20,546 nt of DNA, from IMG/VR virus record IMGVR_UViG_3300047471_000635, positions 1 to 20,546 of that record; one strand, given 5' to 3'. The position numbers and the translations under genes were made by a program. Below, one piece after another: positions 6,158-20,114 of the stretch (position 1 is its first letter; every line of letters begins with the position of its first letter). The DNA is from a virus. Under the pieces are notes generated by a model. It was not told the DNA's origin, ran no database searches, and was given only the letters and a program-made list of their open reading frames with translations.

Positions 6158-6439
6158 CTACTTCGACGGGTTGATGTGCAGTTCCTTGGTCATCACATCG
6201 ATGATCCGCTCAAGCCGCGAGGTGTTGCGTTCGGTTTCTTTTTCGAGAACCGTCAGGCGATTGTTGATCTCCGCGAGATGCGGCGAGCCGCGCACCTCCA
6301 GCGTCACGACCCGCGTTTCCAGCCGCACCATGTAGGCGGTGACGCTCAAACCCGCCGCGCCGATCGCAATGGCCTGCGCCACCAGAAAATAGACGAGGGT
6401 CTGGTTTTCCGAGAACCATGATCGGACCTTGTCGATCAT
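6158..6439 (-). CDS. Small membrane protein with coiled coil (holin or spanin-like)
   Basis: A 93-residue protein. A hydrophobic segment (about 14-37; LVYFLVAQAIAIGAAGLSV and onwards) follows a short charged N-terminus. After it comes a long charged helix (LETRVVTLEVRG, then LAEINNRLTVLEKETERNTS) with leucine spacing of a coiled coil. One membrane span plus a coiled coil resembles the inner-membrane spanin (Rz-type) layout as well as some holin-associated proteins. Its ATG overlaps the amidase stop (ATGA at 6436-6439), tying it to the lysis cassette. No Rz1-like lipoprotein partner was found nested in it. Holin, antiholin and spanin all remain possible. Confidence 0.68.
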   Translation of the reverse strand: MIDKVRSWFSENQTLVYFLVAQAIAIGAAGLSVTAYMVRLETRVVTLEVRGSPHLAEINNRLTVLEKETERNTSRLERIIDVMTKELHINPSK

Positions 6440-7401
6440 GCCGGGAAGGTGACCTCCACCGTATCGTCGGTTTCCAGCCCGAGATCCTGCATCACGCTCT
6501 GCGAGACATCGACCAGCCGGCCGGTGTTTTCATTCGGCCCCCAGTCAGCCGGCATGCAGACAACGCCGAAACCGGTGCGCGGGTTGCGCACAAAGGCCTT
6601 GAGCCCGAGGAGCTCGGCCTTGGAGTGCTGGTCGTAGTCCCACCGCATCGCCAGAAAATGCACATGCGGATTGAGCCGGCGCGCGAGCCCGGTCGTGCCG
6701 GGCGGCTGCGAGGGCAGGAATAGCTCCGGTTTCTGCGACACGCTGCTGATGAACGCCAGCCCCTCGCTCGGCGACACGCCGGCGTCCTCTGGGCCGCCAA
6801 ACCACGACACCGTGCCGGTCTCCACCTCGAAAGCCGGCGGCTCAGGCGGGTCCGGTCGATCGGGCCGCCCCGGCGTGCCTGGGATCGTCACGCCCGCGAT
6901 CGTCTCAGCGAGCGCCCGGCAGACGGCATCGAAACCGGTCTGGTAAAGCGCCACGTCGGTCTGGCTATCGACAAAGCAGACCTCGACGAGAATGGCCGGC
7001 GCGCTCGTTGAGTTCAGGAAGAACAAATCGCTGCGGTATTTGGGGCCACGGTTGGTAAACCCACAGCTAGCGATCGCCGCCGACACGTCGTCCGCGAGCT
7101 CCTCCTGCGTGACGTACAGACATTCGGTGCCGTGGCCGCTACCGTCGTAGGCGTTGAAGTGGATCGAGATATCAAGCTGGCGCTCGCGCGAATTGTGGAA
7201 ATCAACCAGCCGATTGAGGTTCTCGTTCTGCGAGGTTGATACCGTGTCCTCGTAGGTGGTCACATCGACGCCGGCCTCGCGCATGAACTGGGCCGCGCGA
7301 TCGACCACCCGCACCGCCTCCTGGTGCTCGTCGATGTAGCCCACGGCTCCCGAGACGTGCTTGCCGTGGCCCGACGAGATCACGATCCGGTCATAGGTCA
7401 T
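6436..7401 (-). CDS. Endolysin: amidase_3 domain fused to RlpA-like double-psi barrel
   Basis: A 321-residue cell-wall hydrolase. Residues 1-170 are an N-acetylmuramoyl-L-alanine amidase of the Amidase_3 type, which cuts the bond between MurNAc and the stem peptide. Visible parts are the zinc ligands His12 (SSGHGKHVSG), Glu28 (DEHQEAV) and His81 (SIHFNAY), and catalytic Glu140 (ILVEVCFVD). A Pro/Arg/Asp linker spans 172-190. Residues 197-321 resemble an RlpA-like double-psi beta barrel: the block PADWGPNENTGRLVDVS parallels the D-x-GP-x-x-GR-x-x-DLS signature, with Asp286 and Asp298. RlpA-type domains in bacteria can act as lytic transglycosylases. There is no signal peptide, so a holin would be needed for release. 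ATG 7401 overlaps the stop of the upstream gene. Confidence 0.85.
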   Translation of the reverse strand: MTYDRIVISSGHGKHVSGAVGYIDEHQEAVRVVDRAAQFMREAGVDVTTYEDTVSTSQNENLNRLVDFHNSRERQLDISIHFNAYDGSGHGTECLYVTQEELADDVSAAIASCGFTNRGPKYRSDLFFLNSTSAPAILVEVCFVDSQTDVALYQTGFDAVCRALAETIAGVTIPGTPGRPDRPDPPEPPAFEVETGTVSWFGGPEDAGVSPSEGLAFISSVSQKPELFLPSQPPGTTGLARRLNPHVHFLAMRWDYDQHSKAELLGLKAFVRNPRTGFGVVCMPADWGPNENTGRLVDVSQSVMQDLGLETDDTVEVTFPA

Positions 7402-7691
7402 TTGGGCGGCCCCTTCGGCTCATGCTTGTCCTCAAGCGCCTTGACGCGGTCTTGCGCCTCCTTGAGTGCGGTCTGCAGTTGTTCAACCTGCATCCGTAGC
7501 GACGTTACCTCGATTACCAGCGCACCGATCTGCGTACCGATGCGCTGGTCGAGCGTCGGGGATGGCGGTACCGGTGCCGGAGACTGTGCGAACACGGGGG
7601 CGCAGAGACCTATGCCAACCGACACAGCAACCGCTAGACAACGGGATAGCGAGAGCGGTAGAATTGCGGCCATGGATGTCATCCTGGGCAT
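7398..7691 (-). CDS. Secreted coiled-coil protein upstream of endolysin
   Basis: A 97-residue protein from ATG 7691; in-frame ATGs at 7682 and 7673 give 94 or 91 residues. Residues 8-36 look like a Sec signal peptide (LSLSRCLAVAVSVGIGLC followed by APVFAQ), with probable signal peptidase cleavage after VFA. The mature part has a Pro-rich link, then a coiled coil (ALVIEVTSLRMQVEQLQTAL, then KEAQDRVKALEDKHE). The cysteine contexts do not match a lipobox. It lies between the tailspike and the endolysin and is coupled to the latter by ATGA. A periplasmic lysis accessory role is inferred from position and layout. Confidence 0.65.
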   Translation of the reverse strand: MPRMTSMAAILPLSLSRCLAVAVSVGIGLCAPVFAQSPAPVPPSPTLDQRIGTQIGALVIEVTSLRMQVEQLQTALKEAQDRVKALEDKHEPKGPPK

Positions 7692-7761: not shown

Positions 7762-10700
7762 TTACGGCGTCTCATACATGATCCCCATGTTGATTTGATC
7801 ACCATTTACCCAGGTGGTTGTGCCGTCATAATAGCTGATGCTTAGTTGCGTCGCGCTGTCTAATATAAAACATATTATCCCCTTGAGCCTGCTCTGCCCT
7901 GAACAGCCAAGTGCATAGTTCAAGGTCGATGATATTGGCAACGGCAAGGTCATAAGTATACGACCGGTCGCTGTACCGACCGTAGGGATACCTATCGTCA
8001 CTCTCATGAGTACGATTTTGCCCCACTTTCTATATACCGCAGAGGCGCCGGCGGACGTAAAAGTGCCGGTTACATTCGTAATGACCGGACTGAACGAAGT
8101 CCCCGCTGACCCGCCCCAGGTTATCTCATTGGCAACTGTAAGATTGCCTGCTCCTGGATCGCTTGTGCCACCGACGTTGGCGCTGGAAAATGTTTGCAGC
8201 GCCGACCAGTTGTTGACGTGGCCGAGAGCGAGCGATGCCACCACCGCTCCTGTCGTCGGTGCGATTGTCAGTGTGCTGTCGGCGTTGCTGACGCTATTGA
8301 CGGCCCCACCTCCGCCCGAGCCGCAAGTCGCGCCAGTTCCGGACACCACACCTGTGGCGCTGGCCTGCAAACATTGGGTTGAGCCAGTGATGCCGGACAG
8401 TGCCAACGTGCTACTCGACACTCCCGCGCTAAATGTCTGCGCCGCACTCCAAGTATTGGCCTTAGCGAGATTGATCTCCAGGTTTGTTGTGGTGGTTCCA
8501 CTAACCGCTAAGGTAGTCCCCGTGCTAGTGATCGCGTTGACGCCACCGCCCCCAGAACCGCACGCCGCGCCCGTGCCAGAAACGACACCGATTGTGCTTG
8601 CTTGCAAACATTGAGAGCTTGCGCCAGTGACACCGGATAGAGTGAGACCGCTGAGGGTCTGCGGGGCGGTCCAGGTGTTGGCGTGCCCGAGGTTCAGGTC
8701 GACAGTAACCGCCGTCGTTCCCCCAACCGCGATCGTGCTGGCGGGACTGCTGACACCAGTAATTCCGCCCCCGCCGGCTCCGCAGTCAGACGCGGTGCCG
8801 GACACAAGACCGGTCGTATCGACGTGCAGGCACCGTGTGCCGCCCGTGATCCCGGTAAACTTAGCGCCCGTCGAGACAACCACCCCGTTGCCGCCGTCTA
8901 TGCCGACATTGGCACTGCCGACCGATAATCCACCGCTCGCTTGCATCGCCACGGTCGATGTCAATGACGCTGTGCCGGTGGGCGTAGTTAAGAATTGAAT
9001 TGATGCGCCCTGCTTTGTGTCGCTGTATGTCTCGGTGGCAACCATCTCGATCAGGGCGCCGCCGCCCGTAGAATACGTCGTTGCGCCGTATCCGGCCCCG
9101 CTGATGGCAGCGAGCAGCGTGCCCTGCGCCGTCGGCGAAGGGGCCGCCAGTGTCCCACCCGACGTGAAGAAATTCAGCGCTGGTGAGCCGGACGCCGCAA
9201 AAATGGTCTGCCTTGCGTTGCCTCCATTGGCACCGAGGATCTGTTGCACAGTATCGGGAATACCAAGCGTAGGCTTGGCTGTGTTCTTGGTCGCTACAGC
9301 AACCGCGTTCCCCACTGGATACGGCGGCGCCGCCTCGGTCGGGTCCATAAAAAACGTCGACCCATCGTCGCGGATATTGATCGCCGTGTTTGAAATGCCA
9401 AACGTCGGCCGCGCCGCCGAGGGCTGATAGCCGCCAATGTCGCTCGTGCTCTTGAAGTTTGTCCCGTTGGATATCACCAGCGTCGAGGCGTGCGAGCCGG
9501 AAATCTTGATGCGATTGGTCGCATAGCCGTTCCACCCGACCGTCCCGCCGCTGGTATAGGTGCCGCCGAAAGTTGTCCCAACCAGATCAATCTGCGTGCC
9601 ATTGACAATTGACACCGTGCCTTCTGCATTGCAGCCGGTCGCACCATTGATGCCGGTTGCCCACAATTTCTGACCATTGGTAAACCCGCCGGTGCCGCCA
9701 GTAATTGTCAAACGGCAAGCCGCGCCGGCGCCACTCACGGCCCCCGTAACAACTCCCACTGGCGGCATCGTTCGCTCAAATGACGATCCCATCACAGTGA
9801 TCGCGGACTGGTTCGCATTCTGTGAGACGGAGATATCCGCGTCCCCAGCATTGCCCTCGAAAATCACGCCCCGGAAACTGATCGCGCCATACCCGGCGCC
9901 AGGATCGCTAATGAGCACGCCGCCAGAACCGGCAACGCCGAGTCGGCCGTTGTACTGGAAACCTCCGCCGATAAATTCAAACCCATTCAGATGCGTGCCG
10001 TTGGCCCCGTAGGTGATGTTGCCGCCGATGTCCGGGTTAATGAATGTCCAGTTGTTCGGCTCGGTCACACTAACAGCAGCATTCCAATGAATGCCGCCAT
10101 TGTTCCACACTACGTGCGTGTCGTAGACCGATATCTGATCGGCATCGACATTGTCCCACCCGAGATCAAATTCAGCGATGACCACGTCGCGGACGACGCC
10201 ATAGGCCATCTTGTTGAATTTTAAACCGACGCTGCTGGGGACAAAGGTGGCGCCGGGATGGATGCCCTGCAGCCGGATATGCTCCAGATGAAAAAAGCCC
10301 TCAGGCCTGTTTGTGGCACCGATGTAGCTCAAGAGTGTGCCGTTCCCACCATAGGCGATGCACGTGGACGATGGCCCGGCACCCACAAGGTGGATGCGGT
10401 TGATAAAGACCGTCGATGTCGCTGCTGTCTCATCGATTGTGAGCGCGGCCGGCGCACCCGCAACCTTATAACATTGGCCCGCCGCGGATCGCGGGAAGTA
10501 CAGTGTGCCGCCGCCTCCAGCGAGCACCGCATTGATTGCCGCCTGAATTGCACTCGTGTCATCAGCAACACCGTCGCCAACGGCGCCAAAGTCTCTCACG
10601 CTGATGGTCTGGCCGATCTTCGACCATACGTCGTAAGGCACGGCACCGGTGCCGGCCTGAGTGAACGGCTGCAGCCTCGGCGCCGCATCGCTGCGCAGAG

Positions 10701-11211
10701 CGTTGGACGCAGCGCCATTCACGGCAGTCGGGCCAACCACCCCGGTCGGGTTCGCAAAGGTGACGCCGGTGCCACCGCTGCCGCATTCCGATCCGGTGCC
10801 GGAAACATTCCCCGCGGTGTCGGCGTGCAGACACTGCGACGACCCCGTAATCCCCGACAGCTTGAGCGCGCTGATCGACGCCCCCGCATTGAACGTCTGC
10901 AGGGCGGTCCAGGTGTTGGCGTGAGCGAGGTTCAGCGAACCGACGACGTTGCCCGTCGTCGGCGCAATCGTTAGCGTCGCGTCCGAATTGGTCACGCTGC
11001 TGACGGCCCCGGCGATGCCAGTGCCGCAACCAAAGCCGACGCCCAGCGTGTAATTAAGCGCCCCCGTTGGACAGTTCGGCACCGGCACCGTATTTGGCAG
11101 CCCGGAGCTCGTGGTAAAATTTCCCCACAAAGTGCTGGGTGGGAATTGCGTCTGCGCGACCGCCTGGGTCGAGAGTAGGGCCGCCGCGAGTGCAAACAGG
11201 ATACGTTTCAT
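7762..11211 (-). CDS. Modular tailspike with pectate-lyase fold and signal peptide
   Basis: A 1149-residue adsorption protein. ATG 11211 lies five bases after the previous stop; its ribosome site is weak (GGGT). Residues 1-20 are a textbook signal peptide (MKRILFALAAALLSTQAVAQ). Residues 69-147 form a first repeat module ending CGSGG. A further linker (FANPTGVVGPTAVNG, then NALRSDAAP) is typical of tail fibres. From about 203 the motif VRDFGAVGDGVADDTSAIQA marks a Pectate_lyase_3 type right-handed beta helix, reaching to about 480, as in tailspikes that cut surface polysaccharide. Beta-rich fibre sequence follows. Residues 785-1010 repeat the module (half, full, full, half), and the last 140 residues form a C-terminal tip. 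The polysaccharide target is unknown; export of a spike through Sec would be odd. Confidence 0.82.
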   Translation of the reverse strand: MKRILFALAAALLSTQAVAQTQFPPSTLWGNFTTSSGLPNTVPVPNCPTGALNYTLGVGFGCGTGIAGAVSSVTNSDATLTIAPTTGNVVGSLNLAHANTWTALQTFNAGASISALKLSGITGSSQCLHADTAGNVSGTGSECGSGGTGVTFANPTGVVGPTAVNGAASNALRSDAAPRLQPFTQAGTGAVPYDVWSKIGQTISVRDFGAVGDGVADDTSAIQAAINAVLAGGGGTLYFPRSAAGQCYKVAGAPAALTIDETAATSTVFINRIHLVGAGPSSTCIAYGGNGTLLSYIGATNRPEGFFHLEHIRLQGIHPGATFVPSSVGLKFNKMAYGVVRDVVIAEFDLGWDNVDADQISVYDTHVVWNNGGIHWNAAVSVTEPNNWTFINPDIGGNITYGANGTHLNGFEFIGGGFQYNGRLGVAGSGGVLISDPGAGYGAISFRGVIFEGNAGDADISVSQNANQSAITVMGSSFERTMPPVGVVTGAVSGAGAACRLTITGGTGGFTNGQKLWATGINGATGCNAEGTVSIVNGTQIDLVGTTFGGTYTSGGTVGWNGYATNRIKISGSHASTLVISNGTNFKSTSDIGGYQPSAARPTFGISNTAINIRDDGSTFFMDPTEAAPPYPVGNAVAVATKNTAKPTLGIPDTVQQILGANGGNARQTIFAASGSPALNFFTSGGTLAAPSPTAQGTLLAAISGAGYGATTYSTGGGALIEMVATETYSDTKQGASIQFLTTPTGTASLTSTVAMQASGGLSVGSANVGIDGGNGVVVSTGAKFTGITGGTRCLHVDTTGLVSGTASDCGAGGGGITGVSSPASTIAVGGTTAVTVDLNLGHANTWTAPQTLSGLTLSGVTGASSQCLQASTIGVVSGTGAACGSGGGGVNAITSTGTTLAVSGTTTTNLEINLAKANTWSAAQTFSAGVSSSTLALSGITGSTQCLQASATGVVSGTGATCGSGGGGAVNSVSNADSTLTIAPTTGAVVASLALGHVNNWSALQTFSSANVGGTSDPGAGNLTVANEITWGGSAGTSFSPVITNVTGTFTSAGASAVYRKWGKIVLMRVTIGIPTVGTATGRILMTLPLPISSTLNYALGCSGQSRLKGIICFILDSATQLSISYYDGTTTWVNGDQINMGIMYETP
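8182..8859 (-). repeat. C-terminal repeat modules of the tailspike
   Basis: Protein-level repeats at residues 785-1010. The unit is about 75-79 residues, with the core ANTW-[ST]-A-x-QT near its middle and LSG-[IV]-TG, then CL-[QH] and VSGTG-x-x-CGSGGGG at its end. Seen here are a second half (residues 785-816), two full units (817-890 and 891-969) and a first half (970-1010). Another full unit is at residues 69-147 (about 11007-10771). Each full unit has two conserved cysteines. Confidence 0.75.
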
Positions 11212-11215
11212 GTCG

Positions 11216-11779
11216 TTACCCAAAGCTAAGGATGACCCACCCGCCGGTGGGATTTGGCGCGAGGGAGGCAGCGCCGAATTTCGTGCGAATGACGACAGAA
11301 CCCAGGCCATCAGCCTTTTCCGTGCCATTGAACGTTACGGTGATGTTGTTTGTGTCGGCATCACCCTTGCCGTCCTTGATGTAGACCGGCCCGCGGGTAC
11401 GTAACCCTGCAGCGACGAGCGTCACCTGCGTCGGACTGCCGGCAGCTTTCTCGACAATGATGAGATCATCTGGGATCGACGCGAGATAGCCCACGCCAGA
11501 CTGCACGGTGATCGTATTAAAACTGTACGCGCCACCGCCGCCACCGCCGCTTCCTACCACGATCGACAACGGCATCGTGTTATAGACGCCGCTGACGCGG
11601 TCCCACACCTTGACCATTTTTTCGTCGGGAACCGGTATTGCACTCAGCGCCGCAAGCACCTCATAAGCCGAGCCGATCGTGTAGATGCCGTTTTTCTTCG
11701 TCACCTCGACGCCATCGATCGCGACCACCTGGGTCGGAAACGACGCCGAGACGTTGACCCGATAGGCAAAGGGCAGCAT
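11216..11779 (-). CDS. Fibre-associated structural protein
   Basis: A 187-residue protein. ATG 11779 is chosen because AAAGGAGG, the best ribosome binding site in the window, lies five bases upstream and overlaps the stop of the preceding gene. The N-terminal 75 residues (YRVNVSASFPTQVVAIDGV onwards) precede a glycine run (SGGGGGGAYSF). The C-terminal part (VQSGVGYLASIPDDLIIVEK, then GPVYIKDGKGDADTNNITV) resembles the beta-rich IKDGKGxAxxNNI tip domain often found in phage tail fibres. It sits between a small fibre-associated gene and the tailspike, so it probably belongs to the adsorption apparatus. Exact role unknown. Confidence 0.75.
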   Translation of the reverse strand: MLPFAYRVNVSASFPTQVVAIDGVEVTKKNGIYTIGSAYEVLAALSAIPVPDEKMVKVWDRVSGVYNTMPLSIVVGSGGGGGGAYSFNTITVQSGVGYLASIPDDLIIVEKAAGSPTQVTLVAAGLRTRGPVYIKDGKGDADTNNITVTFNGTEKADGLGSVVIRTKFGAASLAPNPTGGWVILSFG

Positions 11780-11790
11780 TGCTGCCTCCT

Positions 11791-12201
11791 TTAGTACGTC
11801 ACACCGCCGTCGATCACCGGCAACTGCGCGACGAACAGTTGTCGTGTTCCCTGGTCCGAGCCGTCCGAGGCAACGCAACCGACGCGGTATGTCCCGGCCT
11901 TGAGCGTGCGCATCTTGGTTTCCGGGAAAACCACCTGGAAATACCCCACGTCGAGGATCGCGATCCCGTTGCCGAGCGACGCCGTGAGTATCGGATACGC
12001 CTCGGGCGGGTCGTCGTACCAGGGCGCCATGGGGGTCGACCAATGCCCGACGCTGCGGCCAATGATGCGCACCTCAAGCTGGATCGAGGTAAGCCCCGAC
12101 AGGTCGATCGGGTCGCCGGTGTCGTCGTCGCGGAGCTCGATCACCGGCACCCAGCTTTCGCGGTTGGTAACTTGGGGAAACAGGATAGGGTTTGCGTACA
12201 T
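11791..12201 (-). CDS. Small tail/fibre-associated protein
   Basis: A 136-residue protein. ATG 12201 is preferred, with AGGAA six bases upstream; GTG 12204 would give one residue more. The start overlaps the stop of the tail fibre gene by one base (TGATG). It reads as a beta-rich domain (WVPVIELRDDDTGDPIDLSG, then IQLEVRIIG), a glycine/isoleucine strand region, and the end LFVAQLPVIDGG. This opening resembles the N-terminal domain of some baseplate or fibre-attachment proteins (BppU-like), which I recall only as a general pattern. Virion-associated is likely from context. Confidence 0.7.
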   Translation of the reverse strand: MYANPILFPQVTNRESWVPVIELRDDDTGDPIDLSGLTSIQLEVRIIGRSVGHWSTPMAPWYDDPPEAYPILTASLGNGIAILDVGYFQVVFPETKMRTLKAGTYRVGCVASDGSDQGTRQLFVAQLPVIDGGVTY

Positions 12202-13175
12202 CACAGTTTCCTGAAAAAGGTGCCAACAACACTGAGCGGCGTGTTGTTGTGCGTGCCGTTGCCGGCATTGTCTTTCATCGACGCAGTGACGCCAGAGAAA
12301 CGACTGTCAGTGGTTGCTGCTGTCGCGGTTCCGCCGGCGCCTCCGTTCCAGAGCCCCCCACCTGCGTTGACAATAAACCCAGCACTAAACGGGTTTACAA
12401 GATTATGAGAATGTTGCGCGTCGGCGAAAGCGAACGTCCACAGCCCGGTTGGCGCCTCGCCGACCAAGAGTTTATGCGCCGCCTCGCCGACCTTTGAACC
12501 GGCCGTCGTCGGATTGCCCTGCACGATCGGCGCGCTGGCAAGTCCCGCCGTATCGGCGTTGCCCATCGCGGTGTCGCCGACCGGCACGTAGCCGCGCTTG
12601 TCGGGCAACGTGATCTGCTTGCCTGCAGTAAAATCCGCGAGCCCGCTCGCGCCGCGCCCGCCAATCACCGGGCAGATCGTGTCAGCGTAGGTGTTCCACA
12701 GAAACACGAACAGCGCTTGCGTGTCGGCGTTTGCACGTTCGCCCGCGCCACTCACCGCGTTGCCGATCGTCCTGCCGTTGTCACGCACCCAACCAACGCG
12801 CGGGCCGGGCACGTCCAGCCAGATGACATCGCCAGCCTGGAAGATGGCCGCCGGATCCACGCCTGGGCCAGGACCGCCGCCGGTGCCGCTTGAGGGGCCG
12901 ACGACCAGCATGCTGGGATAGTCGAATTGCACCACACCGCCGCTGTCGGTCAGCCGCACATGCACCGAGCCATCCGCGAGGTAGAACATGGGCACCCGGC
13001 CGCTGTTGTCGCCGGCGAGCGGCCACGGGTTTTTGATCGTCAGGCCCTGGTCAAGAAAACTGTCTTGTGGTGTTGTGGTATTTGCGGCATAGATGTACAG
13101 CAAGCATCCCGCCAGCGGCTTGCCGAGAGCGCTGAACTGCTGACTGAGCGGGATGCCTGGGAGGGTGCCGGCCAT
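12201..13175 (-). CDS. Tail fibre with P22-like head-binding N-terminus and collar-type C-terminus
   Basis: A 324-residue fibre protein. The N-terminal 90 residues (FSALGKPLAGCLLYIYAANT, then NPWPLAGDNSGRVPMFYLAD and GVVQFDYPSML) resemble the head-binding domain of P22-type tailspikes, which docks on the tail machine. A Gly/Pro linker is at about 93-107. The C-terminal half has a phage tail-collar-like pattern: WLDVPGPRVGWVRDNGRTIG, then ITLPDKRGYVPVGDTAMG and the ending HNNTPLSVVGTFFRKL. The sequence suggests a short fibre or adaptor, with the 1149-residue spike gene as a second receptor-binding protein. ATG 13175 has only a weak ribosome site, and GTTTAAAC lies directly upstream at 13177-13184. 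Confidence 0.82.
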   Translation of the reverse strand: MAGTLPGIPLSQQFSALGKPLAGCLLYIYAANTTTPQDSFLDQGLTIKNPWPLAGDNSGRVPMFYLADGSVHVRLTDSGGVVQFDYPSMLVVGPSSGTGGGPGPGVDPAAIFQAGDVIWLDVPGPRVGWVRDNGRTIGNAVSGAGERANADTQALFVFLWNTYADTICPVIGGRGASGLADFTAGKQITLPDKRGYVPVGDTAMGNADTAGLASAPIVQGNPTTAGSKVGEAAHKLLVGEAPTGLWTFAFADAQHSHNLVNPFSAGFIVNAGGGLWNGGAGGTATAATTDSRFSGVTASMKDNAGNGTHNNTPLSVVGTFFRKL

Positions 13176-18322: not shown

Positions 18323-19761
18323 TACGGTGCCCTCACAGTGGTTGATTGCGTGCCGCCCAGGTGGCCGATGTAGACCGGGTCGGCGATGTCGAGCCGCCAG
18401 CGCCGGCCGTGACGACCGGACATGCCGAGCGAGGTTGCGTAACAGGCGTGCCGGCCGTCGGCCTGCTTGCCCAACTTGCGCATGATCGGCACGCTCCACT
18501 TGGTGCCGCCGTCGTCCGACCATGAGATTTCGATCGTCGGATCGACCTGGATCGGGTCGATGCCGGTAGCGATGCCGACGCCCGGCTGAAACTCAAAATC
18601 CGCCCGCGCCACCCTGGTGCGCACCGGGAAATCCGCCACCGGCCCGCTTTCGATCCGGCACACCTGTTGCACGCCGTATTCGGTGAAGGTGGCGCCGTCG
18701 ATCGCGCCCAGCTTGCCCGACTGGGTGTCGCCAAGGATCCACTTATTGAACGCAAGGGTGCCGCCAATGCCGCGCCAGCGGGTGAACTGACCGGTGAGCA
18801 GGCTGGCGCGCTCGTTCCACTTCTGCGCGCCGAGGCCAAACTCCCAGGTGAAACTTGGCCCCGAGATTGTCCAGAACGACTTGCCCTCGTGGGTGTAGCA
18901 GCCGGCCTCCAGTTGTGTCGGATCTACCTTCGCCTGCGCTTGAATGAGGCGATCGAGATCAGGAGGCGACACCTTGTCGGGTTGGAGGCCGGTCCCGAGC
19001 CGGTAGACCCCGCAATCATCACCGACCCAGAGCAGATTGCCGAAACCCTCCTCCCAGCCGGCGAGCGCGGTGGGAGCGATCAGGCCGCGATCGAGCACGG
19101 CGAGGCGCGAATAGGGGAAGCCTGGAGGCGGGTTTGCGGTGTCCGACCACACCTCGCAGCCCGCCGTCGTAAAGATGAACAGCAGGCCCTTGTGCGCCAC
19201 CACGCGGATCAGCGCGTCCTGTGCCTTGCTCTCCGCGACCGTGAAGCACAAAGGGTCGACCGAGCTCGAGTTGATGCCGGTGGCAAACACCCGCCGATCG
19301 CCGATGCCGAAGAAGAAATACCCGTCCTGGAAGCACACCGAATTCGCAAACGGCAGATCGGCATCCGGCCATGCGATTGGCGCCGCGCCCGATGCGTCGG
19401 TCAGGAAAGCACCGTTCTCGGTGACGATCGCGACCTGACACGTCGGCACCAGATTGTTGCGCGCCATCTGCACCTTTTTCGTGCCGGCGAGCGCGCCAAC
19501 GTCGGCGTCGACCCCGTTTGCGTCGATCTTGCGCAGCCGGCCATTGAACGCCGCAAACAGGAAATTGTTGACCAGCAGGCTGCCGCGGTAGCCGGCCTGC
19601 GCGGTGGTCGCAAACGTCGCGAGGCCCGGCTGCCGATGGCGCACCGAGCGCCCATCAACGATCGGCTCAGCCGAGCAGTTGATCAGACGCCCGGCGCCCT
19701 CGACCGGATGACCGCCGGGGGCAGTAGTCAACGGAAACGGGATTTTCGGCGGCGCCGGCAT
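18322..19761 (-). CDS. P22 gp10-like tail hub / packaged DNA stabilisation protein
   Basis: A 479-residue protein. ATG 19761 (TGATG overlap with the previous stop) is preferred over TTG 19764. The opening PGGHPVEGAGRLINCSAEPI and QPGLATFATTAQAGYRGSLL, then repeated beta blades (NGRLRKIDANG, VGDDCGVYRLGTGL) and the ending SGRHGRRWRLDIADPVYIGH, resemble the P22 gp10 family. In P22 this hub plugs the portal after packaging and anchors the tail. Length is close to P22 gp10 (about 472). The partner gp4-like gene lies directly upstream, as in P22. Confidence 0.82.
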   Translation of the reverse strand: MPAPPKIPFPLTTAPGGHPVEGAGRLINCSAEPIVDGRSVRHRQPGLATFATTAQAGYRGSLLVNNFLFAAFNGRLRKIDANGVDADVGALAGTKKVQMARNNLVPTCQVAIVTENGAFLTDASGAAPIAWPDADLPFANSVCFQDGYFFFGIGDRRVFATGINSSSVDPLCFTVAESKAQDALIRVVAHKGLLFIFTTAGCEVWSDTANPPPGFPYSRLAVLDRGLIAPTALAGWEEGFGNLLWVGDDCGVYRLGTGLQPDKVSPPDLDRLIQAQAKVDPTQLEAGCYTHEGKSFWTISGPSFTWEFGLGAQKWNERASLLTGQFTRWRGIGGTLAFNKWILGDTQSGKLGAIDGATFTEYGVQQVCRIESGPVADFPVRTRVARADFEFQPGVGIATGIDPIQVDPTIEISWSDDGGTKWSVPIMRKLGKQADGRHACYATSLGMSGRHGRRWRLDIADPVYIGHLGGTQSTTVRAP

Positions 19762-20114
19762 CAATAATACTCCGTGCGCAACCGCTCATAGGTCGGTCGT
19801 CCGCGCACGATTTCGCGGATCTGGCTCTCGGCCTGCAGCACCTGGGCGTTGAGCTTGTCGAGCTCGTCCTGTTGGAGCCCAAAATTCTGCTTGTTGCTGT
19901 CGGCGAGCAGGATCGCGGTCTGAATGAAAATCTCATCCGGGACCGCGTCCGGGTTGGGGATGTAGACGAGCTCGCGGGCAGCAAGCGCCTTAAGCACCGT
20001 GTCCACGTCGTCGTCGATGATCTTGGCGGTGTCGGCGTCGACCGTCTGGCCGACCGCCGAGATACCGAGAACATCGAGCGCTTTCGAGACAAGGTCTGCC
20101 CGCGTGCGGCTCAT
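19761..20114 (-). CDS. P22 gp4-like tail accessory factor
   Basis: A 117-residue protein from ATG 20114, which overlaps the previous stop by one base (TGATG); TTG 20117 is an unlikely alternative. It is helical (MSRTRADLVSKALDVLGISA, then TAKIIDDDVDTVLKALAARE, then EIFIQTAILLADSNKQNFGL) and ends in an acidic-to-basic tail with RGRPTYERLRTEYY. The length and first-helix pattern match P22 gp4-like adaptor proteins, which bind the portal and recruit gp10. It is directly coupled to the gp10-like gene. Confidence 0.78.
   Translation of the reverse strand: MSRTRADLVSKALDVLGISAVGQTVDADTAKIIDDDVDTVLKALAARELVYIPNPDAVPDEIFIQTAILLADSNKQNFGLQQDELDKLNAQVLQAESQIREIVRGRPTYERLRTEYY

Follow-up and report, generated by a model that had tools for sequence, protein, structure and literature searches.

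A Sec-type signal peptide on a split-off, cysteine-paired podovirus spike points to possible folding of phage host-recognition proteins outside the cytoplasm

The combination of a predicted signal peptide with paired cysteines recurs on spikes or tail fibres of dozens of related, uncultured phages. Some phages may thus let their host-recognition proteins fold beyond the cytoplasm and attach them to the virus particle only once the cell bursts. In the textbook view, tailed phages assemble entirely in the cytoplasm, a compartment in which disulfide bonds do not form. The spike gene from which the analysis starts lies in a stretch of 20,546 bases (the window) that comprises one whole record of an uncultured virus; judged by its genes (Hc3, a DNA ejection protein, tail genes and an Amidase_3 endolysin), this virus is a P22-like, soil-type podovirus, and nearly all of its relatives are likewise uncultured. 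Comparison of the predicted proteins establishes a Sec-type signal peptide at the start of the spike, its conservation among relatives, and its ties both to a split spike architecture and to paired cysteines. The relevant features of the window are:

18325-19764, minus strand: head closure protein Hc3
12201..13175, minus strand: collar-type tail fibre of 324 amino acids with an N-terminal Pam1-type head-binding domain and no signal peptide
11791..12204, minus strand: small tail gene of 137 amino acids without a signal peptide, between collar fibre and adaptor, and in the same place in relatives
11216..11779, minus strand: stand-alone adaptor (putative connector) of 187 amino acids without a signal peptide, with a predicted fold like the N-terminal domains of CBA120 TSP4 and like T4 gp10/gp9
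7762..11211, minus strand: spike of 1149 amino acids and 16 cysteines, with a PF12708 pectate-lyase/epimerase start (residues 203-240), Cys-pair repeats (127-143 and 794-963) and a fibre-like C-terminal region
11155..11211, minus strand: predicted Sec signal peptide, residues 1-19 of the spike (from translation and a rule-based call; kept in L064-L066)
7398..7691, minus strand: gene of 97 amino acids located between those of spike and endolysin, with a likely signal peptide of its own (..AVSVGIGLCAPVFA/QSP) and, behind it, a coiled coil
6436..7401, minus strand: Amidase_3 endolysin (PF01520, 4.8e-24), part of the lysis cassette that adjoins the spike

The first 60 bases of the spike gene (11152-11211, minus strand) encode MKRILFALAAALLSTQAVAQ, which the first-pass annotation had read as a genuine Sec signal peptide, and this reading holds up. 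All three elements of a Sec-exported substrate of signal peptidase I are present in the leader: a charged n-region (K2, R3), a hydrophobic core spanning roughly residues 4-14 with no charge past R3, and an AxA-type site at residues 17-20, where cleavage is predicted after residue 19 (MKRILFALAAALLSTQAVA/Q; AVA/Q). The signal calls were made with a rule-based predictor written for this analysis, not with SignalP; it was positive on 7 of 8 E. coli signal peptides and on 0 of 3 cytoplasmic or virion controls, and its background is 2.9% for random draws from the spike's own composition and 7.2% for shuffles of the first 60 residues. Among the upstream head and ejection ORFs of related contigs the rule is positive at this background rate as well (9/317).

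The start codon at 11211 lies 4 nt past the upstream stop (which ends at 11216), and the junction ..GGGTAAnnnn ATG AAA CGx ATC.. is common to the three nearest relatives (L064, L065 and L066), in which synonymous substitutions and even the insertion of one codon have left it intact; the start of the spike is thus kept in these phages although their spike bodies differ. This spacing and the conserved junction make the start codon sound, and the longer frame listed from 11328 would run into the adaptor gene upstream of it. The corresponding genes of the nearest syntenic relatives begin with MKRILFTLAALLFSTQAFA/Q, MKRILFASAAAVLLSTQAFA/Q and MKRILLALAAALISTPAIA/Q, followed by bodies of 141 to 1130 mature residues that differ in sequence. 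Loss of the signal peptide in close homologues, named at the outset as evidence that would speak against it, is therefore not what these relatives display. With false positives of the predictor at 2.8-7%, one might still suspect a functionless hydrophobic leader or a wrongly chosen start codon, but conservation in relatives, the architecture rule and the cysteine pattern described below render chance or misannotation extremely improbable.

The first-pass annotation overlooked that this protein makes up only the distal half of a spike split over two genes, an architecture to which the signal peptide belongs. As expected of a virion tailspike, the long tail gene has a pectate-lyase/C5-epimerase-like beta-helix start (residues 203-286; PF12708, 4.2e-8; phrog_1171, 2.3e-6); domain and profile searches of the spike (P0001) found no N-terminal head-binding or connector domain of its own. 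The putative connector is instead the product of the separate upstream gene. Further along the spike, residues 663-776 resemble a domain of a 'cell wall surface anchor family protein' (8on4, 2e-6; 8oml, 7e-6), a likeness that hints at a possible exchange between phage spikes and bacterial surface proteins.

The family of the 187-residue adaptor occurs as a stand-alone gene in some phages and as the N-terminal part of a long spike in others, and its profile matches the N-terminal region of CBA120 TSP4 (9e-4). Searched with Foldseek, a structure model of the adaptor (mean pLDDT 79, pTM 0.55) matched CBA120 TSP4 (7rfo, 3.7e-7), the T4 baseplate chain 5iv5_AC (3e-4) and T4 gp9, the long tail fibre connector (1qex, 7e-3). 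Because of this predicted fold, shared with the connector domains of T4 gp9/gp10 and CBA120 TSP4, and because of its gene place, the adaptor is probably a virion connector, whose role, judged by place, would be to receive a separately made fibre. Unlike the spike of the window, the fibres of T4 and the spikes of CBA120 have, to our knowledge, no signal peptides, and their joining takes place in the cytoplasm.

In an automated count across the relatives, stand-alone adaptors are followed by a signal-bearing gene in 26 of 32 cases, against 2 of 33 for adaptors fused to the body (Fisher 1e-8, 1e-4 and 0.003 at 90, 60 and 45% clustering, respectively; since the sequences are related, raw p values here and below overstate their independence, and clustered and tree-based versions are given alongside). 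Two of the signal peptides had been missed by a first, stricter rule and were checked by eye. The one clean exception, L105, combines a stand-alone adaptor with a signal-less body that starts M-SWQVPDYSIPIG, where the counterpart in L043 has a signal peptide and then QWQTPQYSIPIG; in two further exceptions (L035 and the cultured phage Pam5) a fused adaptor is followed by a small signal-peptide gene. The fused bodies of other phages occupy the same gene place as the signal-bearing ones. Eight contigs (L114, L116, L117, L118, L120, L122, L123 and L134) have two connector-domain genes per cassette, so some phages seem to carry two different connector-borne spikes.

The signal recurs on a second tail protein of the same cassette, the collar-type fibre. 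In the window this fibre is signal-less, unlike its homologues in L051, L053, L054 and L035, and its N-terminal domain matches head-binding structures (7eeq, 1.2e-13; 9vyg, 3.4e-14; in addition to a tblastn match to Pam1). A signal peptide is called by the rule in 36 of the 87 proteins with a Pam1-type head-binding domain, and in 21 of the 27 that could be scored the predicted cleavage falls exactly where the signal-less versions begin after their Met (M-AGT versus AFA/AGT). When scored with a profile built only from cultured, signal-less spikes, the domain does equally well in either class (medians of 51.5 and 58.2 bits, p 0.58; E<1e-5 throughout); hence, the exported fibres still seem to dock on virions. 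These data also bear on an option raised by the first-pass annotation, namely that the N-terminus of the spike is an uncleaved hydrophobic peg that fixes it to the adaptor or the virion in the cytoplasm. Although short N-terminal anchors do occur in phage proteins, the coincidence of predicted cleavage with the start of signal-less homologues speaks against such a peg, the segment on the collar fibre precedes a domain that already binds virions, and cysteine pairs and even cysteine numbers follow the signal, as detailed below; we therefore regard this option as very improbable.

The 16 cysteines of the spike fall into eight successive pairs. Three pairs with a spacing of 16 residues lie in a repeat near the C-terminus (794/810, 868/884 and 947/963), and a fourth (127/143), in the same repeat unit, lies near the N-terminus. 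The first-pass annotation's remark that its paired cysteines would suit an oxidizing compartment is thus borne out; across the family, too, the mature parts of signal-bearing proteins tend to contain an even, paired set of cysteines, as an oxidizing compartment would lead one to expect. Contigs retrieved through the spike's repeat code for fibres or spikes that are unrelated in other respects, and most of these proteins have a plain signal peptide at their start (exceptions are L010, L014, L016 and L022). The NLAHANTW repeat of the spike also occurs in two contigs (L056 and L058) that were binned as Candidatus Pacebacteria and Kaiserbacteria. Among cultured phages, searches with the spike gave one weak match and searches with the repeat motif one match (E 0.9), and no cultured relative of the distal cysteine-bearing module was found.

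On the collar fibres, cysteines co-occur in alignment columns 32 and 66 and in columns 198 and 206. Of the signal-bearing fibres, 24 of 28 have such a pair, as against 0 of 45 signal-less ones, and even cysteine numbers are found in 26 of 28 signal-bearing fibres versus 14 of the 42 signal-less fibres that have any cysteine. The signal-less fibre of the window and its four closest relatives keep only the first cysteine of the pair in the head-binding domain. On a collar fibre tree computed without the Cys-pair columns, at least nine gains or losses of the signal are required, of which four are forced by well-supported branches; in independent pairs, the cysteine pair only ever accompanies the signal, with only three informative pairs on supported branches. 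The spike bodies follow the same trend: cysteine density is 1.47 per 100 amino acids in signal-bearing bodies versus 0.54 in fused ones (p 2e-6), and the number is even in 19 of 23 versus 10 of 24. This evidence is independent of the signal rule and says, as far as sequence can, that the signal-bearing proteins fold where disulfides form.

Two cultured phages have counterparts of the signal-bearing spike. Burkholderia phage BcepC6B gp19 and Xanthomonas phage PBR31 orf035 possess clear signal peptides, lie after the spike gene and before the lysis genes, match the phrog_11393 tail fibre, and contain 4 and 3 cysteines, respectively. They share with the spike of the window the signal peptide, a paired-cysteine motif (PsC....al.yt...GfGC) and the place between spike and lysis genes; they differ from it in that they accompany a complete, signal-less spike and in that their bodies are otherwise unrelated. 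The exported protein would therefore be an extra fibre in these two phages and not a split body. Their distal domain shares 36-46% identity with the corresponding domain of fibres that lack a signal, from phages of Pectobacterium, Klebsiella and Enterobacter; the same receptor-binding domain thus occurs both fused without a signal and split with one. The PBR31 paper reports a signal peptide only on the esterase gp40 (PMC10975493), and the study of BcepC6B structural proteins treats gp15, gives gp16 and gp18 as structural, and holds no data on gp19.

This gene order is shared by Pseudanabaena phage Pam5, whose spike is fused and signal-less and is followed by a small signal-peptide gene. Directly behind the Pam5 tail spike gene (L061, 10008-10813), two small genes annotated as hypothetical (gp19 and gp20) have signal-peptide-like starts. 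The tailspike gp17 of cyanophage Pam1 (PDB 7eeq) and the P22-type tailspikes resemble the system of the window in the podovirus spike cassette, the beta-helix body and a collar fibre domain homologous to that of Pam1. Pam1 gp17 lacks a signal peptide, whereas here the body is split off, stands behind a separate connector and bears a signal.

The main rival to an exported virion part is an exported protein that never joins the particle, be it a receptor-masking, superinfection-excluding protein or a diffusible depolymerase, acting from the periplasm or freed at lysis against the trapping of progeny on debris or exopolysaccharide. The signal peptide and the cysteine evidence fit export in general, the spike does have a pectate-lyase/epimerase-like start, and the signal-bearing proteins of BcepC6B and PBR31 adjoin complete signal-less spikes. 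There is also a precedent in RcGTA, whose tailspike TspA reportedly detaches from particles and breaks down biofilm (PMC13420450); TspA is an alphaproteobacterial beta-helix spike, comparable to that of the window, that can act apart from the particle, but no signal peptide is mentioned and it detaches after assembly instead of being exported beforehand (PMC13420450). A free protein would have no need of the head-binding domain that signal-bearing collar fibres keep, an argument that weighs less for the spike body itself. Other phages have adaptor-fused bodies in the same gene place, and annotated tail fibres of other phages share the distal domains found in BcepC6B gp19 and PBR31 orf035. Moreover, searches of signal-bearing bodies in the same position found no recognized enzyme domain in L034, L078 and L131, and only a Gly-rich tip in L139, which counts against the secreted depolymerase considered by the first-pass annotation. 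We judge a purely free-acting protein to be unlikely, if a reading to be taken seriously. One exported pool might also supply docked spikes together with free protein that blocks receptors or acts as a depolymerase, because any exported excess would be freed at lysis anyway; a separate form of the spike was not found, the next Met after Met1 being residue 335, and such a dual role appears rather improbable to us.

The explanation that we favour, and hold to be somewhat better than an even bet, is Sec export of the spike, oxidative folding in the periplasm and docking on finished virions at lysis. The host Sec system would export the spike body, the signal peptide would be removed after residue 19, and the protein would fold in the periplasm with disulfide bonds, while heads and tails with the signal-less connector assemble in the cytoplasm. 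Once the holin has opened the inner membrane and endolysin and spanins act, finished particles would meet the periplasmic spikes, which would then dock non-covalently on the connector. The collar-type fibre of related phages may take the same route, its head-binding domain following directly behind the signal peptide. Export of the spike is strongly inferred from sequence and its cleavage predicted; docking on the connector afterwards is a proposal. This route is supported by a signal that is kept while bodies change, the adaptor rule, the connector-like fold, the match of cleavage site and signal-less start, the tie between cysteines and signal, and the mere background rate in upstream genes. 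Points against it are the exceptions to the adaptor rule, the rule-based nature of the signal calls, the relatedness of the sequences counted, the complete signal-less spikes that accompany the exported proteins of BcepC6B and PBR31, and the dilution at lysis, which docking beyond the cytoplasm would have to outpace. In P22 and T4, tailspikes and fibres, respectively, are the last parts to attach and can be joined to completed particles in extracts; classical holin lesions are of a size that lets particles through. The premise of the first-pass annotation that the spike is assembled in the cytoplasm is what this evidence calls into question.

Additional exported products may be encoded nearby. 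The 97-residue protein encoded next to the spike might act in lysis or as a partner of the spike in the periplasm. Downstream of the collar gene in L050/L066, at a distance of about 1.0-3.2 kb, signal peptides occur on each of three short genes in a row (160, 263 and 255 amino acids), which gives the impression of a stack of exported adhesin genes. A function specific to lysogeny was set aside, because an integrase search of eight contigs of the group found one in five and none in the other three, which measure 38-56 kb and include two with a signal-bearing collar fibre. Among prophages in 397 genomes of one bacterial order (that of a Rhizobiales MAG), 20 genes for the head-binding domain yielded one weak rule call and no clear signal peptide, and a class-wide genome sample searched for signal-bearing prophage genes added little to this result.

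A literature search for signal peptides on tailspikes or tail fibres found, in the papers it covered, no description of them, nor any account of Sec-exported, periplasm-oxidized spikes that dock on virions at lysis; candidates considered and dropped were Circe gp063, an Agrobacterium jumbo phage, B. uniformis phages, CB5, JG068, KP34-like phages and rumen phages. Whether the phages compared here form a class with two-compartment virion assembly, in which a connector-bearing particle made in the cytoplasm is joined at lysis by Sec-exported, disulfide-bonded fibres or spikes, and in which repeated gains or losses of a signal, right at the N-terminus of one and the same fibre, have switched phages between this route and the cytoplasmic one, is in our view evenly balanced.

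If true, a key part of the particle would be made outside the cytoplasm and added at lysis in many phages. This would bear on the maturation of disulfide-containing spikes and on the mixing of spikes between co-infecting phages, on the annotation of tail fibres in metagenomes, where such genes can be mistaken for those of secreted host proteins, and on the production of such depolymerases or adhesins in the right compartment. As the cultured phages BcepC6B (gp19) and PBR31 (orf035) carry such genes, the idea is directly testable.
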